32,218 nucleotides of DNA from Candidatus Aminicenantes bacterium (GTDB lineage: Bacteria > Acidobacteriota > Aminicenantia > Aminicenantales > UBA4085). Positions within the stretch are counted from its first letter, which is position 1, and every line of letters starts with the position of its first letter. The notes under the pieces are model-generated. The model was given only the letters and a program-made list of their open reading frames with translations, ran no database searches and was not told where the DNA came from. Position numbers and translations under genes: made by a program. The stretch covers positions 1-32,218 of the forward strand of contig JAPKZJ010000026.1 in the NCBI GenBank assembly GCA_026393855.1, in the 5' to 3' direction. Positions 24,180 through 31,962 of the stretch are shown here, in pieces.

Positions 24180-25883
24180 ATGCACGGCAAGAAGATCCCC
24201 CTGCTTCTCCTGTTCGCCTGCGCGATCCCGGCCCTGGCGCTCGAACCGCCGACCCGGGCCGAGCACGATCAATACCTGCGCGACGGGAGCCTTGCCCAGC
24301 GCCTGGCCAACGCCCGCGCCTTCGGCAACCATCTCGTCGACCCGGCTCTTGTTTGGGACCTGCGGGTTCGACTGGAGCGGGCCGCCCTGGGTCTGCCGGA
24401 GGGCCCGCTGGGAGCGCTCGGCCTGCCCAGCGGCCGGCGCGGCGGGCTGCCGGCGAAGGGCAGCGTCAAGGTTTTCGCCCTGCTGATCGATTTCTCCGAC
24501 TTCCCCGCCGTCAATTCCGTTTCCACGATCGCCTCCAAGCTGTTCGGCGACGGAGACACCGGCTACCCTTACGAAAGCCTGCGCAACTACTACCGCCGGG
24601 CCTCCTACAACATGCTCGAGATCGGCGGCTCGGTCCTCGGCTGGTACAGGCCGTCCTATACCCGGACTTCCATGCCGCAGACCACCTCCGCCCGGGAGGC
24701 GCTGATCAAGGAGGCTTTGCTCCATTTCGACGCCCAGGGCCACGACTTCTCCAAGTACGACAACGACGGCAACGGGACCATCGATTATTTCGTCGTCGTC
24801 TGGGCCGGGCCGAACAACGGTTGGAGCAATTTCTGGTGGGGCTACCAGACCAGCTTCTCCGACCAGACCTTCCAGCTGGACGGCAAGCGGTTCTATGCCG
24901 CCAAGTATTCCTGGCAATGGGAATCCCGTTACTGGCCGGGGGCTTACGATCAGATCGTGGTCATGCATGAGACCGGCCACGCCCTGGGCCTGCCCGATTA
25001 CTACGACTACGACGCCACCGTCGGGCCGGGCGGGGGGCTGGGCGGGTTCGACATGATGGACGCCAACCGCGGCGACCACAACTGTTTCAGCAAAATGCTG
25101 TTGGATTGGATCTCCCCGCAAGCCTTCGTCTATGGGACGCGCGGCTTTGCCCTGGGAGCGTCCGGCGGCGGGCAGGACGCGCTGATCCTGATGCCGGAGT
25201 CCTCCGCATCCCAGCCGTTCGATGAATTCTTCATGGTCCAGAACCGGACCCGGGCCGCCAACGACGCGACCCTGCCGGGAGACGGGCTGATCGTCTGGCA
25301 CGTCGACGCCCGGCTGAACACGGCCGGAACGAACTTCCGCTACGACAATTCCTACACCGACCACAAGCTCGTCCGGCTGATGGAGGCCGACGGGCTGGAG
25401 CAGATCGAGCGGGGGTACGCCGCGGGAGCCGCCGATTACTACACCGCCGGCCGGACGCTGTCGCCGCTGACCACACCCAACTGTAGCCGCTACGACGGGA
25501 CCTCGCCCGGCCTGACGCTCAGCTCCATCGGCGCCGCCGGCCCGGTCATGGCCTTCGCCGCCGACATCCATTACACCCTCTTTCCGCCGGCCGGGGCCTC
25601 GCTGACCAGGCTTCAGAGCGACTTCATCTTCTTCATCGAATACATCAACAAGCTCGCCTGGGCCAACGACGCCCGGAACCGGACCCGGATCGAGAGCTAC
25701 CGAATCTACAAAAAGCCCAAGGGCGCGGGGGACGAAGCTTATGTCCTCCTGGCCGAGATCGCGGCCGAAGCCTCCCCCGTCTACGAACACAGGGGGCTGA
25801 AAAAGGACGAGGCCTACGCCTACCGAATCATCGCCATCGATGCCAACGGCGTCGAGAGCACCGGGGCGGAGGTGATCCAGTGA
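24180..25883 (+). CDS. Exported M6-family metalloprotease with FN3-like tail
   Basis: A 567-residue zinc protease of the M6 (immune-inhibitor A-like) family. A signal peptide (residues 1-20, ending IPALA) is followed by VKVFALLIDFSDFP and the zinc site HETGH (263-267) continuing ALGLPDYYDYD. The catalytic domain continues with GGFDMMDAN and the conserved FMVQNR and DGLIVWHVD segments. A fibronectin-III-like domain fills about residues 475-567. M6 enzymes cleave extracellular proteins, often host or environmental ones. It starts an operon with the beta-barrel and PLD genes (four-base overlap with the next gene). Confidence 0.93.
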   Translation: MHGKKIPLLLLFACAIPALALEPPTRAEHDQYLRDGSLAQRLANARAFGNHLVDPALVWDLRVRLERAALGLPEGPLGALGLPSGRRGGLPAKGSVKVFALLIDFSDFPAVNSVSTIASKLFGDGDTGYPYESLRNYYRRASYNMLEIGGSVLGWYRPSYTRTSMPQTTSAREALIKEALLHFDAQGHDFSKYDNDGNGTIDYFVVVWAGPNNGWSNFWWGYQTSFSDQTFQLDGKRFYAAKYSWQWESRYWPGAYDQIVVMHETGHALGLPDYYDYDATVGPGGGLGGFDMMDANRGDHNCFSKMLLDWISPQAFVYGTRGFALGASGGGQDALILMPESSASQPFDEFFMVQNRTRAANDATLPGDGLIVWHVDARLNTAGTNFRYDNSYTDHKLVRLMEADGLEQIERGYAAGAADYYTAGRTLSPLTTPNCSRYDGTSPGLTLSSIGAAGPVMAFAADIHYTLFPPAGASLTRLQSDFIFFIEYINKLAWANDARNRTRIESYRIYKKPKGAGDEAYVLLAEIAAEASPVYEHRGLKKDEAYAYRIIAIDANGVESTGAEVIQ

Positions 25884-27833: not shown

Positions 27834-27839
27834 TATAAT
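27834..27839 (+). promoter_or_regulatory. TATAAT -10 upstream of the mutase operon
   Basis: Perfect TATAAT thirteen bases before the ATG at 27853; no convincing -35 at 16-18 bases and no Shine-Dalgarno. The transcript would have a leader of about seven bases. Confidence 0.4.
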
Positions 27840-27852
27840 TCTTTCTAAGCCC

Positions 27853-29199
27853 ATGAAACTTCTCAAGATCGGCATTTCCGGCGTCCGCGGCATCGTGGGC
27901 GAGTCGCTGACCCCCAAAACGGTCATGGATTTCGCCGCCGCCTTCGGCGCCTTCGCCGAAGGCCGCCCGCTCGTCCTGGGCCGCGACACCCGGATCCACG
28001 GCCCGATGCTGCGGTCCGCCTGCGCGGCAGCCCTTCTCTCGGCCGGATGCGACGTCATCGATCTGGGGGTCTGCCCGACGCCCATCCTGCAGCACGCGGT
28101 GCGCGGCCTGGGGGCCGGCGGCGGAGTCTCGATCACGGCCGGCCATAACGACATCCAGTGGAACGCCCTGACTTTCATCAACGCCGAGGGGACTTATCTC
28201 AATCCCTTTCAGGGCACCGAAGTTCTGGACATCTATCACGTCGGCCGCTTCCGCAACACCGATACCGACGGGCTGGGCGCGCTGTCCCAAGCCGCAGGGC
28301 CGATCGAGGCCTATTTCCAGGCCCTGGGCCGGTTCCTGGATATCGACGCCGTCCGCCGGGCCCGCTTCAAAGTCGTCATCGACGCCTGCTCGGGGGCCGG
28401 GGCGCCGTTTCTGAAAGCCTTCGCCGACCGGCTCGGCTTCGATCTCATCCCGATCAACGACGAGCCCAACGGGTTCTTCCCGCATGATCCCGAGCCGAGG
28501 CCGCGCAACGCCCAGCAAGCCGTGTCCGTCCTTAAAGCCATCGGGGCGGACGCCGGATTCCTGCTGAACAGCGACGTCAGCCGGGTCTCGCTCGTCAGCG
28601 AGACCGGCGAGAGCCTGTCGGAGGAATTCACGTTCCCGCTCGTCGCCGAAGCCGTCCTGGCCCGGCGGCCGGGGCCGATCATCACGAGCTACTCTACCTC
28701 CCGGATGATCGAGGACGTCGCCGGGCGGCGCTGCCCTCTCCTGCGAACCAAGGTCGGCCAGTCCCACCTCATCCATGCCGCCCTGCAGGAGGAGGCCATC
28801 CTGGCCGGCGAGGGGAGCGGCGGGGTGGCGGCCTTGGATTTCCAGCCCGCCTTCGACGGCTTCCTGACCATGGGCCTTGTTTTGGAGACTCTGGCCAAGA
28901 CCGGCCTGCGGCTGTCGGCGCTGGTCGGGGCCTTGCCCCGCTATCACATCGTCAAGGAAAAGATCTATTGTCCGCCCGCCCGCATCCACGGGGTCATGGC
29001 CGAGATCAAGGCCTTGTTCGGGCCGAAGGCCGTCGACACGGGCGACGGCGTCCGGGTCGAGGACAAGACCGGCTGGGCCCAGGTCCGGGCCTCCTCGACC
29101 GAACCCATGGTCCGAGTCATCGCCGAGGACCGCGACCGCGACAAGGCCCGCGCCCGGGCCGACGAAATTCTGAACGACCTCGAGCTGATGGTACGATGA
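27853..29199 (+). CDS. Phosphohexomutase-family pseudoenzyme
   Basis: A 448-residue protein of the phosphomannomutase/phosphoglucosamine mutase family (ISGVRGIVGESLTPKT). Normal enzymes carry a phosphoserine in TASHNP and bind magnesium through DGDADR. Here the serine loop reads TAGHND with Gly97 in place of Ser, and the metal loop reads NSDVSR (239-244), losing two of three Asp. The sugar loop GEGSGG (319-324) and the phosphate-binding RASSTEP (412-418) are kept, so ligand binding is likely retained without mutase activity. The gene overlaps its active-looking paralogue by four bases (ATGA). A regulatory subunit or sugar-phosphate sensor is possible. Confidence 0.85.
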   Translation: MKLLKIGISGVRGIVGESLTPKTVMDFAAAFGAFAEGRPLVLGRDTRIHGPMLRSACAAALLSAGCDVIDLGVCPTPILQHAVRGLGAGGGVSITAGHNDIQWNALTFINAEGTYLNPFQGTEVLDIYHVGRFRNTDTDGLGALSQAAGPIEAYFQALGRFLDIDAVRRARFKVVIDACSGAGAPFLKAFADRLGFDLIPINDEPNGFFPHDPEPRPRNAQQAVSVLKAIGADAGFLLNSDVSRVSLVSETGESLSEEFTFPLVAEAVLARRPGPIITSYSTSRMIEDVAGRRCPLLRTKVGQSHLIHAALQEEAILAGEGSGGVAALDFQPAFDGFLTMGLVLETLAKTGLRLSALVGALPRYHIVKEKIYCPPARIHGVMAEIKALFGPKAVDTGDGVRVEDKTGWAQVRASSTEPMVRVIAEDRDRDKARARADEILNDLELMVR

Positions 29200-30569
29200 A
29201 GAGCAAGACGACCCTCAAGATCTCGATCTCCGGCGCCCGGGGCATCGTCGGCGACAGCCTGACGCCCCAGCTCGCGGCGGCCCTGGCCCAGGCCTTCGGC
29301 ACCTACGTCGGCGGCGGACCCGTCCTCGTCGGCCGCGACGCCCGCCGCTCGGGGATCATGCTCAGCGAGGCCGTTTCCGCCGGCCTCCTGGCCGTCGGCT
29401 GCCGGCCGGTCGACGTGGGCATCTGCGCCATTCCCTCCTTCCTCTTCCTGACCAAGGACCAGCGGGCCGCAGGCGGCATCGCCGTGACCGCCAGCCACAA
29501 CCCCAAGGAATGGAACGGGCTCAAGTTCATCAGCCGCGACGGGCTCTACCTGACGCCGCGACAGACCGAGGAATACCTTGATATCTACCACCAAGGCGAG
29601 TTCGCCCTGGCCCCGGCCGAGCGCCACCGCGTCCCCTCCCATTTGGACGACGCTTCGGATCCGCACCTGCGGCGCATCCTGTCGCGATTCGACACGGCCG
29701 TCGTTCGCCGCCGCCGCCTGCGGGTGGCCCTGGACTGCAACAACGGGGCCGGGGCTCTGCTCGGCCCCCGCCTCCTCGAGGCCTTCGGCTGCGAGGTTGT
29801 GCCTCTCTATACCGACCCGAACGGCGAATTCGCCCACGAATCCGAGCCCACGCCCGAAAACATCACGGCCGTCTGCCGGGCCGTCCGGGAGTCCAAGGCC
29901 GACGTCGGGTTCGTGCAGGACGCCGACGCCGATCGGCTGGCCGTGGTCAACGAACGCGGCGAGCCGCTGGGCGAGGAACTGACCTTGGCCCTGGCCGTCC
30001 GCCATGTCCTGGGCAAGCGGAAGGGCTCCGTGGTCTGCAACCTGTCCAGCTCGCGCCTGATCGACGACCTGGCCGCCGAGCGCGGGGTCAAGGTCTTCCG
30101 GACCCGGATCGGCGAGATCAACGTGGTCGAAAAGCTTCTATCCGCCCGGCCGCGGGCCGTCATCGGCGGCGAGGGCAACGGCGGGGTCATCGATCCCTCC
30201 GTCCATCCCTGCCGCGACAGCTTCACGGCCATGGCCCTGATCCTGGAATCGATGGCCGAGACCCGGCGCAAGGTCTCGGACTTGCAGCATAGCCTGCCCC
30301 GATACTTCATGCTCAAGGACCGCATCAGCGGATCGGCCGAACAGGCCCACCGCCTCATCGGGCGGCTCAAGAAGCACTACCAGGCGAAGGGACGGATCGA
30401 CCTGACCGACGGCTTGAAGGTCGACTTCCCGGATCATTGGATCCACGTCCGGCCGTCCAACACCGAGCCTATCATCCGCGTCCTGGCCGAAGCCAGGACG
30501 CGGGCCAAAGCCGCGGCCGCCCTGGACGCCTTGAAAGACGCCATCGCGGCCGCCCTCAAGTCAGCCTGA
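29196..30569 (+). CDS. Phosphoglucosamine mutase/phosphomannomutase-like enzyme
   Basis: A 457-residue phosphohexomutase with all catalytic features: the phosphoserine loop TASHNP (S100), the metal loop DADADR (242-247), the sugar loop GEGNGG, and the C-terminal phosphate site RPSNTEP. Reactions of the family move phosphate between C1 and C6 of hexoses or hexosamines; GlmM-type conversion of glucosamine-6-P to glucosamine-1-P fits the adjacent nagA, but the sequence alone does not exclude mannose or glucose. It starts at the ATGA overlap with the degenerate paralogue and precedes nagA by 46 bases. Confidence 0.9.
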   Translation: MKSKTTLKISISGARGIVGDSLTPQLAAALAQAFGTYVGGGPVLVGRDARRSGIMLSEAVSAGLLAVGCRPVDVGICAIPSFLFLTKDQRAAGGIAVTASHNPKEWNGLKFISRDGLYLTPRQTEEYLDIYHQGEFALAPAERHRVPSHLDDASDPHLRRILSRFDTAVVRRRRLRVALDCNNGAGALLGPRLLEAFGCEVVPLYTDPNGEFAHESEPTPENITAVCRAVRESKADVGFVQDADADRLAVVNERGEPLGEELTLALAVRHVLGKRKGSVVCNLSSSRLIDDLAAERGVKVFRTRIGEINVVEKLLSARPRAVIGGEGNGGVIDPSVHPCRDSFTAMALILESMAETRRKVSDLQHSLPRYFMLKDRISGSAEQAHRLIGRLKKHYQAKGRIDLTDGLKVDFPDHWIHVRPSNTEPIIRVLAEARTRAKAAAALDALKDAIAAALKSA

Positions 30570-30615: not shown

Positions 30616-31962
30616 ATGCCTCGAACCAAGACGACCAAGACCGCCGGGAAGGCCAAAGCCGGGCCCAAAGCCAAGAGCCGGGCGCCGCGCGGAACCAAGC
30701 GCGCCGCGGCCGCCAACCCCGTCGGCCGCCCCCCCGCCGCATTCACCCTGATCCGGGCCGGCGCCGTTCTGACGCCGGGAGCCTCGATCCCCGACGGCGC
30801 CGTCCTGGCCCGCGGCAAGCGCATCGTGGCGGTCGGTTCCTATAAAAAGATGGGCGCGCTGGTGCGCCGCCTCCATAACCGATCGCGGCGATTCGTCCTG
30901 GAAGTCCACGACCGGCGCGGCCTGATCGCGGTTCCGGGATTCATCGACGTCCACCAGCACGGCGGCGGAGGGGCCGATTACATGGACGCCGGGACCGATG
31001 CGGTCCGGACCATCCTTCGGACCCACGCCCGGGAGGGCACAACCTCGGTCCTCCCGACCTTGATGACAGCCTCAAAGAAGGCCGTTGAAAAGGCCGCCCG
31101 GACGATCGACCAGGTTCGCCGGGAATCCAGGCGCGGCCGTGACAAGATCGCGGCGGGCGCGCTGCCGGAGATCCTCGGCCTCCACCTGGAAGGCCCGCAC
31201 ATCGCGGCCGAGAAACGAGGCGCCCAGCCCCTGGCGAACATCCGCCGCTTCGATCCCGATGCGATCCGGGCCCTGGGCAAGGCCATCAAGACCCCCATCC
31301 GCATCGTCACCCTGGCGCCCGAGCTCAAAGGCGCGGAAACCTTCATTCGGTTTCTCGGCGGCCGCGGCATCATCGCCTCGGCCGGCCATTCGGCCGCGAC
31401 CTTCGAAGAGGCGCTGCGAGGATTCGAGGCCGGCGTCCGCCACGGCACCCATCTTTACAACGCTATGAGCGGGTTCGGCCACCGTGAGCCGGGATTGGCG
31501 GGCGCCCTGCTGCTGAACGACGAGGCTTCGGTCGAGCTGATCGCCGACGGGCACCACCTCCACCCGGGCACGATCTTTCTAACCCTGGCGGCCAAGCCGC
31601 CGGACAAAGTTCTTCTTGTCACCGACGCAACCCGGCCGGCGGGCATCGACAAGGCGCCCCTGCGAACCAAAGAAGGGAAGCTCTTCGGAAGCACGTTGAC
31701 CCTTCTTCAAGCCGTCCGCAACGTCATCCGCTGGAGCGGCTGGCCGCTGGCCGACGTCCTGCCCCTCGTCACGACCAACCCCGCCCGACTGCTGGGCCTG
31801 GAGAAGAAGAAAGGAGCCCTGGCTAAGGGCTGCGACGCCGACGTCGTCCTCCTGGACTCGGCGCTTCGGGTCCACGACGTTTTTGTCGGGGGAAAGGCCG
31901 TTTTCCCCGTCGAATCGCGCCGGAAAGGAAAAGCCGCTCCCGCCAAAATAAGAAAGATATAA
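30616..31962 (+). CDS. nagA: N-acetylglucosamine-6-phosphate deacetylase with basic tails
   Basis: A 448-residue amidohydrolase that removes acetate from GlcNAc-6-P to give glucosamine-6-P. Family motifs are clear: DVHQHGGGGADYMD, HLEGPHIAAEKRGAQ, SAGHSAATFEEA, THLYNAMSGFGHREPG and VTDATRPAG, containing the metal and catalytic residues. The ATG at 30616 follows AAAGGAG. Unlike typical NagA, the first ~43 residues are a Lys/Arg/Ala/Pro-rich disordered tail, and the C-terminus is also basic (RRKGKAAPAKIRKI). The reaction product feeds the mutase encoded upstream, so the three genes probably form one amino-sugar unit. Confidence 0.93.
   Translation: MPRTKTTKTAGKAKAGPKAKSRAPRGTKRAAAANPVGRPPAAFTLIRAGAVLTPGASIPDGAVLARGKRIVAVGSYKKMGALVRRLHNRSRRFVLEVHDRRGLIAVPGFIDVHQHGGGGADYMDAGTDAVRTILRTHAREGTTSVLPTLMTASKKAVEKAARTIDQVRRESRRGRDKIAAGALPEILGLHLEGPHIAAEKRGAQPLANIRRFDPDAIRALGKAIKTPIRIVTLAPELKGAETFIRFLGGRGIIASAGHSAATFEEALRGFEAGVRHGTHLYNAMSGFGHREPGLAGALLLNDEASVELIADGHHLHPGTIFLTLAAKPPDKVLLVTDATRPAGIDKAPLRTKEGKLFGSTLTLLQAVRNVIRWSGWPLADVLPLVTTNPARLLGLEKKKGALAKGCDADVVLLDSALRVHDVFVGGKAVFPVESRRKGKAAPAKIRKI

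Follow-up and report, generated by a model that had tools for sequence, protein, structure and literature searches.

The DNA analyzed here, called the window, is a stretch of 32,218 nt from an Aminicenantes metagenome-assembled genome (MAG) of 3.68 Mb in 144 contigs. It carries two tandem genes, P0001 and P0002, followed by a gene encoding NagA (Table 1). P0001 and P0002 share 37% identity over 424 residues and are paralogues in the archaeal-type phosphohexomutase/GlmM family; both contain all four PGM_PMM Pfam domains (PF02878/02879/02880/00408). An earlier, sequence-only reading of this DNA had reported the two open reading frames and their ATGA overlap, and its coordinates were exact. A candidate -10 hexamer precedes P0001 with no -35 match, and a consensus promoter scan did not list it. 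No Shine-Dalgarno sequence is visible before the P0001 start codon, and the P0001 transcript is possibly near-leaderless if the hexamer is the -10 element. No Rfam elements or tRNAs were found in the window. An M6-family metalloprotease-like gene lies upstream of the mutase pair (window 24180-25883); in several f1 genomes, homologues are found close to the pair (cluster c25), and the copy at L058 is named by TIGR03296.

Table 1. Features of the tandem mutase locus (positions in the window).
Feature	Position	Strand	Evidence
Candidate -10 hexamer TATAAT	27834..27839	+	13 bases 5' of P0001 start; direct reading of sequence
P0001, predicted catalytically dead phosphohexomutase paralogue, 448 aa	27853..29199	+	ORF and translation; four PGM_PMM domains; orthologues with fixed GHN/NSD motifs in 37/59 related genomes
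Former phosphoserine loop T95-A-G97-H-N-D100, Ser to Gly at 97	28135..28152	+	Alignment: G in 45/45 class A homologues, S in 59/59 partners
Former metal loop N239-S-D-V-S243-R244 (DxDxDR to NxDxSR)	28567..28584	+	N239 44/45, S243 40/45 (else G), D241 and R244 45/45
Q303, in place of the Glu conserved in active partners	28759..28761	+	Q in 42/45 class A, E in 58/58 active sequences
Sugar-binding loop G319-E-G-S-G323, retained	28807..28821	+	E320 44/45, S322 45/45
Phosphate-binding loop R412-A-S-S-T-E-P418, retained	29086..29106	+	R412, S414, T416, E417 44/44
ATGA overlap of P0002 start and P0001 stop	29196..29199	+	Read from sequence
P0002, intact archaeal-type GlmM/phosphohexomutase, 457 aa	29196..30569	+	TIGR03990 481 bits (cut-off 439); catalytic residues intact
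NagA, N-acetylglucosamine-6-phosphate deacetylase (P0003)	30616..31962	+	TIGR00221 272.8 bits (cut-off 225.65)

The active site of this superfamily is formed by four loops, which are a phosphoserine loop, a metal loop with three Asp, a sugar loop with Glu and Ser, and a phosphate loop (PMC6443537). P0002 has the full catalytic set (S100, H101, K110, D242/D244/D246, R247, E307, and E326), as the sequence-only reading had claimed. In P0001, the T-x-S-H-N-P phosphoserine and D-x-D-x-D-R metal motifs are absent; TAGHND and NSDVSR, reported earlier in their place, were seen in both translation and alignment. Loss of the serine and the metal loop had been recognized correctly, but two further replacements had been overlooked: T107 stands where P0002 has the conserved Lys (K110), and Q303 where P0002 has the conserved Glu (E307). 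P0001 shows neither a substitute nucleophile at this loop position nor an intact metal loop, either of which would have counted against the sequence-only reading. Judged from the alignment, the replacement pattern at Gly97 is far beyond chance. The position of the lost Lys has no fixed new residue among class A homologues (T, N, L, A, I; classes are described below). The retained residues of P0001 are R12, H98, N99, D241, R244, E320, S322, R412, S414, T416, and E417, including those of the sugar loop and the RxSxTEP motif that had been described as kept. P0001 is thus predicted neither to be phosphorylated at the usual serine nor to hold the catalytic metal normally, and we infer that it has no mutase chemistry.

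The rebuilt metal-loop region of P0001 (residues 239-256, window 28567-28620) carries the conserved serines S240, S243, S246, and S256. Within class A, conservation of N239, S240, D241, S243, R244, S246, and S256 is 89-100%, and S240 is invariant in alignment A1. From its residues, this region looks as if it has been switched from cation to anion binding.

The AlphaFold model of P0001 is confident (pLDDT 91.6, pTM 0.92), has four domains, and matches the Thermococcus kodakarensis enzyme 9du5 with a TM score of 0.89, so its fold is complete. The closest solved structures to both proteins are the Pyrococcus 1wqa and Thermococcus 9du5 phosphohexomutases. With the Arch_GlmM equivalog model TIGR03990, P0002 scores 481.2 bits and P0001 396.3 bits, above and below the cut-off of 439, respectively. 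Both fail the bacterial GlmM model TIGR01455 (157.7 bits for P0001 and 200.2 bits for P0002, cut-off 447.55). A separate canonical GlmM is encoded in the same genome (C84, TIGR01455 476 bits), and 53 of the 59 genomes in our order-level sample have a GlmM above that cut-off. The possibility that the pair is the sole GlmM of the cell was therefore ruled out, and the pair is an addition rather than the essential peptidoglycan enzyme. Three more mutase-family genes (C34, C70, and C84) were noted in this genome; one is ManB-like of the TGSHNP type, and C84 is the canonical GlmM.

Whether adjacent dead/active pairs recur in related genomes had been raised as a check on the sequence-only reading, and they do. 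Homologues of P0001 (first genes) were found in 37 of 59 genomes in the order sample, and the remaining 22 have neither gene. In all 37, the homologue of P0002 (second gene) adjoins the first gene or runs off the same contig end. A phylum-wide draw gave matches in 35 of 396 Acidobacteriota genomes, and the pair was present in two MAGs among the 149 genomes of an Armatimonadota set. No first gene was seen without a second gene in the order sample, the phylum draw, or the Armatimonadota; the dead paralogue is always accompanied by an active one, as in prozyme-type systems. In the other Acidobacteriota classes, the genes are adjacent except in G332, the only unlinked case, where they lie on different contigs (L129 and L130) in different neighborhoods. 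The first gene is upstream in every linked locus, and a 4-base overlap occurs in 21 of 39 loci compared. One genome (G285) has the whole pair twice (L113 and L114). In Planctomycetota, 74 of 294 genomes match; two have the pair and 72 have a single gene. The single genes inspected (eight plus four others) keep SHN and a DxDxDR-type loop.

Some loci are irregular. The dead gene has a frameshift in G001 (L052:2798-4397) and an in-frame TAA in G018 (L065:1321-2901), which reflect either assembly error or recent loss, the two being indistinguishable here. At L117:1093-2535 (G160), the second gene appears to be damaged, with MASDHP in place of TASHNP and GSGGNGG in place of GGEGNGG, and the first gene keeps its Ser; this is either a reversal of roles or poor assembly.

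First genes fall into three classes in a tree built with the motif columns removed; the class C copies from Planctomycetota and the second Armatimonadota copy lie outside the tree and were classed by motif. Class A (Aminicenantia and Armatimonadota copies) has GHN with NSDxSR, class B (other Acidobacteriota) has GHN with D-x-D/E-x-E-R and T-E-S, and class C (other Acidobacteriota and two Planctomycetota MAGs) retains SHN with N-x-D-x-D-R. The partner genes fall into matching groups. Features common to classes A and C are Asn in place of the first Asp, Tyr154, Ser256, Ser322, and, at 334, an aromatic residue that is mostly Phe. This suggests an initial change in the metal loop, followed in class A by loss of the serine. 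A tree constrained to unite classes A and B is worse by 19 log-likelihood units (AU p = 0.057); two origins of the Ser to Gly change are thus favored over a single origin, short of proof. A single clade of all first genes is not rejected (p = 0.49) but not demonstrated either, and the position of the root is not settled. Lineages have disabled the first copy differently, indicating that loss of catalysis was repeated or stepwise.

Selection on the dead gene was compared with that on its partner. Mean column identity is 62% in the dead family and in the active family. In nine close comparisons (NG86), dN/dS of the dead gene was 0.06-0.15 in eight and 0.35 in the outlying one (L081/L084), and partners ranged from 0.03 to 0.17. 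For the window genes and their nearest relatives, dN/dS was 0.10 for P0001 and 0.16 for P0002. A comparison of this kind had been proposed with the sequence-only reading, and the dead gene proved low and comparable to its partner; by these estimates, dead and active genes are under equal purifying selection. Only eight columns are fixed differently between class A dead proteins and active proteins. Four of these are catalytic (S/G, D/N, D/S, and E/Q), and the others are mostly in or beside the metal and sugar loops. Distances among dead and active proteins correlate (r = 0.93), and the correlation is 0.90 after regression on the separate GlmM from the same 20 genomes, with none of 2000 permutations as high. 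Linkage accounts for part of this mirrored-tree signal.

Gene neighborhoods support a role of the pair in amino-sugar metabolism. NagA or NagB genes occur at 20 of 37 order-level loci, at both Armatimonadota loci, and at L111 and L112, in addition to the NagA gene in the window. The NagA-like neighbors are 28-80% identical to the window NagA, and the NagB neighbors score above the TIGR00502 cut-off. Gene order in Armatimonadota is first gene-active gene-NagB-NagA in one locus and first gene-active gene-NagB in the other. Directly 3' of the pair at L111:6990-8837 and L112:6331-8205, NagB (GlcN-6-P deaminase) is fused to a GHMP-family sugar kinase, and a GHMP kinase lies beside the pair at L113. 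Immediately upstream of five of the first six class C pairs detected (L115, L117, L122, L123, and L127) is an APH-family kinase with no NCBIfam name, a candidate sugar 1-kinase. Two single-gene planctomycete homologues were also noted, one (L150) adjoining a NagA-like gene and the other (L151) near a gene with a GlmS-like N-terminus by sequence reading. A route drawn from known pathways, HexNAc to HexNAc-1-P, HexNAc-6-P, HexN-6-P, and fructose-6-P by kinase, mutase, NagA, and NagB, is plausible for the pair. The hexosamine-phosphate context proposed from the sequence is supported by these NagA, NagB, and sugar kinase genes next door. Ten f6 loci have no nag genes nearby; they carry instead an M20-type amidohydrolase and a large protein that reads as GH38-like but has no NCBIfam hit. 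The substrate may therefore differ between loci.

The sequences show an intact pair of paralogues in which one has lost its catalytic residues in a fixed way and has retained its ligand loops; they also show selection, co-occurrence, co-evolution, and an amino-sugar gene context. Together, these observations make a regulatory or heteromeric partner, as first suggested, the best-supported reading of P0001. We think it probable that P0001 is a pseudo-mutase kept as a dead, ligand-binding regulatory partner subunit of the active mutase P0002, and that in Acidobacteriota the dead copy is probably a non-catalytic partner subunit controlling amino-sugar metabolism. The earlier argument that chemistry was lost selectively with ligand sites kept, rather than by decay, finds strong support in the recurrence, dN/dS, fixed replacements, co-occurrence, and mirrored trees. 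Complex formation, the identity of the ligand, and the direction of regulation are what we infer beyond these observations. In such a mechanism, P0002 would convert an amino-sugar phosphate, probably that of GlcNAc/GlcN, between its 1- and 6-phosphate forms and feed NagA and NagB. P0001, with the same fold and the phosphate- and sugar-holding residues kept but mutase chemistry apparently lost, would most likely join P0002, encoded on the same coupled message, in a hetero-oligomer like the archaeal homotetramers, and its ligand site may tune the activity, stability, or specificity of P0002. The active site in this superfamily lies within one subunit; therefore, P0001 cannot complete the P0002 site. 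The relative from T. kodakarensis (9du5) is a tetramer arranged as a dimer of dimers (PMC11940775). A dead, ligand-binding subunit in a tetramer of this type is the simplest account of the obligate pairing, coupled translation, co-evolution, and conserved pocket.

Several observations weigh against this partner model. Co-inheritance and mirrored trees would be expected from physical linkage by itself. In 72 of the 74 positive Planctomycetota genomes, the active homologue is single and has no partner, which indicates that the chemistry does not depend on one. The ten f6 loci without nag genes keep the substrate assignment from being uniform, and the dead gene is interrupted in two MAGs (G001 and G018).

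Other explanations of P0001 were weighed against the partner model. A role for P0001 as a stand-alone sensor or binding protein for hexosamine phosphate, acting on a target other than P0002 in the manner of GlmM-CdaA, is unlikely. The retained phosphate and sugar loops, the surrounding amino-sugar genes, and the GlmM-CdaA complexes solved for related folds (7olh and 9g69) would suit such a sensor, but P0001 is never found alone, the active paralogue being present even in G332, where the genes are unlinked, and no recurrent candidate target or fused output domain lies beside the pair. Another catalytic activity (e.g., phosphatase or isomerase-like) with a rebuilt, serine-rich metal loop is distinctly unlikely. 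The nucleophile Ser, the conserved Lys, two of the three metal Asp, and the conserved Glu are all gone, with no conserved new residue at the Lys position; conservation of the altered loop is the feature such an activity would explain.

A hetero-oligomer in which P0001 is structural only, serving stability or assembly with an irrelevant ligand pocket, is very unlikely. Points in its favor are the dimer-of-dimers assembly of archaeal relatives, in which helices 2 and 3 and loops 1 and 5 make the contacts (PMC11940775), and PGM5, which is reported as a structural pseudo-mutase (PMC5570346); however, nothing would then keep the residues of the phosphate and sugar loops from drifting, yet they are invariant or nearly so. 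That P0001 is a decaying duplicate under relaxed selection has almost no probability. The two interrupted copies and the single dN/dS of 0.35 point that way, but dN/dS is low elsewhere, conservation equals that of the active partner, and the new motif is invariant across classes and into another phylum; low dN/dS together with the fixed catalytic replacements rules decay out. A more specific form of the partner model can also be considered, with low probability. The P0001 pocket, once a phosphoserine/Mg2+ site, may have been rebuilt into an anion site that binds the sugar-1,6-bisphosphate intermediate and holds, senses, or returns it, re-priming the active subunit; the pair would then be a two-subunit mutase with its own cofactor keeper. 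This would follow from the loss of acidic and phosphorylated groups through the S to G, D to N, D to S, and E to Q changes, the added hydroxyls of S240, S243, S246, and S256, and the retained Arg.

HexNAc salvage through anomeric kinases uses NahK/LnpB-type APH kinases, NagA, and NagB. Kinase, mutase, NagA, and NagB genes cluster in these pathways much as they do around the pair; to our knowledge, the described pathways include no two-gene mutase with a dead subunit. Archaeal-type GlmM/PMM/PGM enzymes (TIGR03990; 1wqa, 9du5, and 2f7l) are nearest to P0001 and P0002 in sequence and fold. Their catalytic set is complete, and 9du5 forms a homotetramer (PMC11940775), whereas P0001 lacks the set and falls below the TIGR03990 cut-off. 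The dead copy in another genome (G005) scores 443.4 bits, above that cut-off of 439, and automatic annotation can thus mislabel non-enzymes as "phosphoglucosamine mutase." Bacterial GlmM (TIGR01455) has the same fold and probable substrate class, and its CdaA complexes (7olh and 9g69) show that a mutase can act by protein contact; it differs in being encoded separately in the same genome (C84), and both P0001 and P0002 are below the TIGR01455 cut-off.

Pseudoenzyme partners have been shown for few enzymes, and the documented examples compared here are eukaryotic. PGM5/aciculin, a vertebrate phosphoglucomutase reported to have no enzyme activity (PMC5570346), belongs to the same superfamily as P0001. 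It is PGM1-type, 567 aa long, and confined to vertebrates, with a structural role in muscle and no operon with an active mutase. The trypanosomatid prozymes are the model for how P0001 might act. These dead paralogues (AdoMetDC/prozyme, PMC5201418; DHSc/DHSp, PMC3663545) activate their partners on complex formation and, like P0001, are retained as partners of an active enzyme; they belong to unrelated eukaryotic enzymes whose complex and activation rest on experiment, while P0001 and P0002 are known from sequence alone. The pair is a widespread bacterial case within an ancient carbohydrate enzyme family, and if the heteromer is real, it would be an unrecognized control point in the amino-sugar flux of Acidobacteriota. 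With three differently disabled partners beside an intact enzyme, the order in which catalysis is lost as the partnership persists becomes readable and testable. No description of such a pseudo-mutase pair was found in the open-access literature. A pseudoenzyme with an active paralogue is known as a kind; its occurrence in this superfamily, the operon context, the phylum-wide spread, and the three disabled versions appear to be new.
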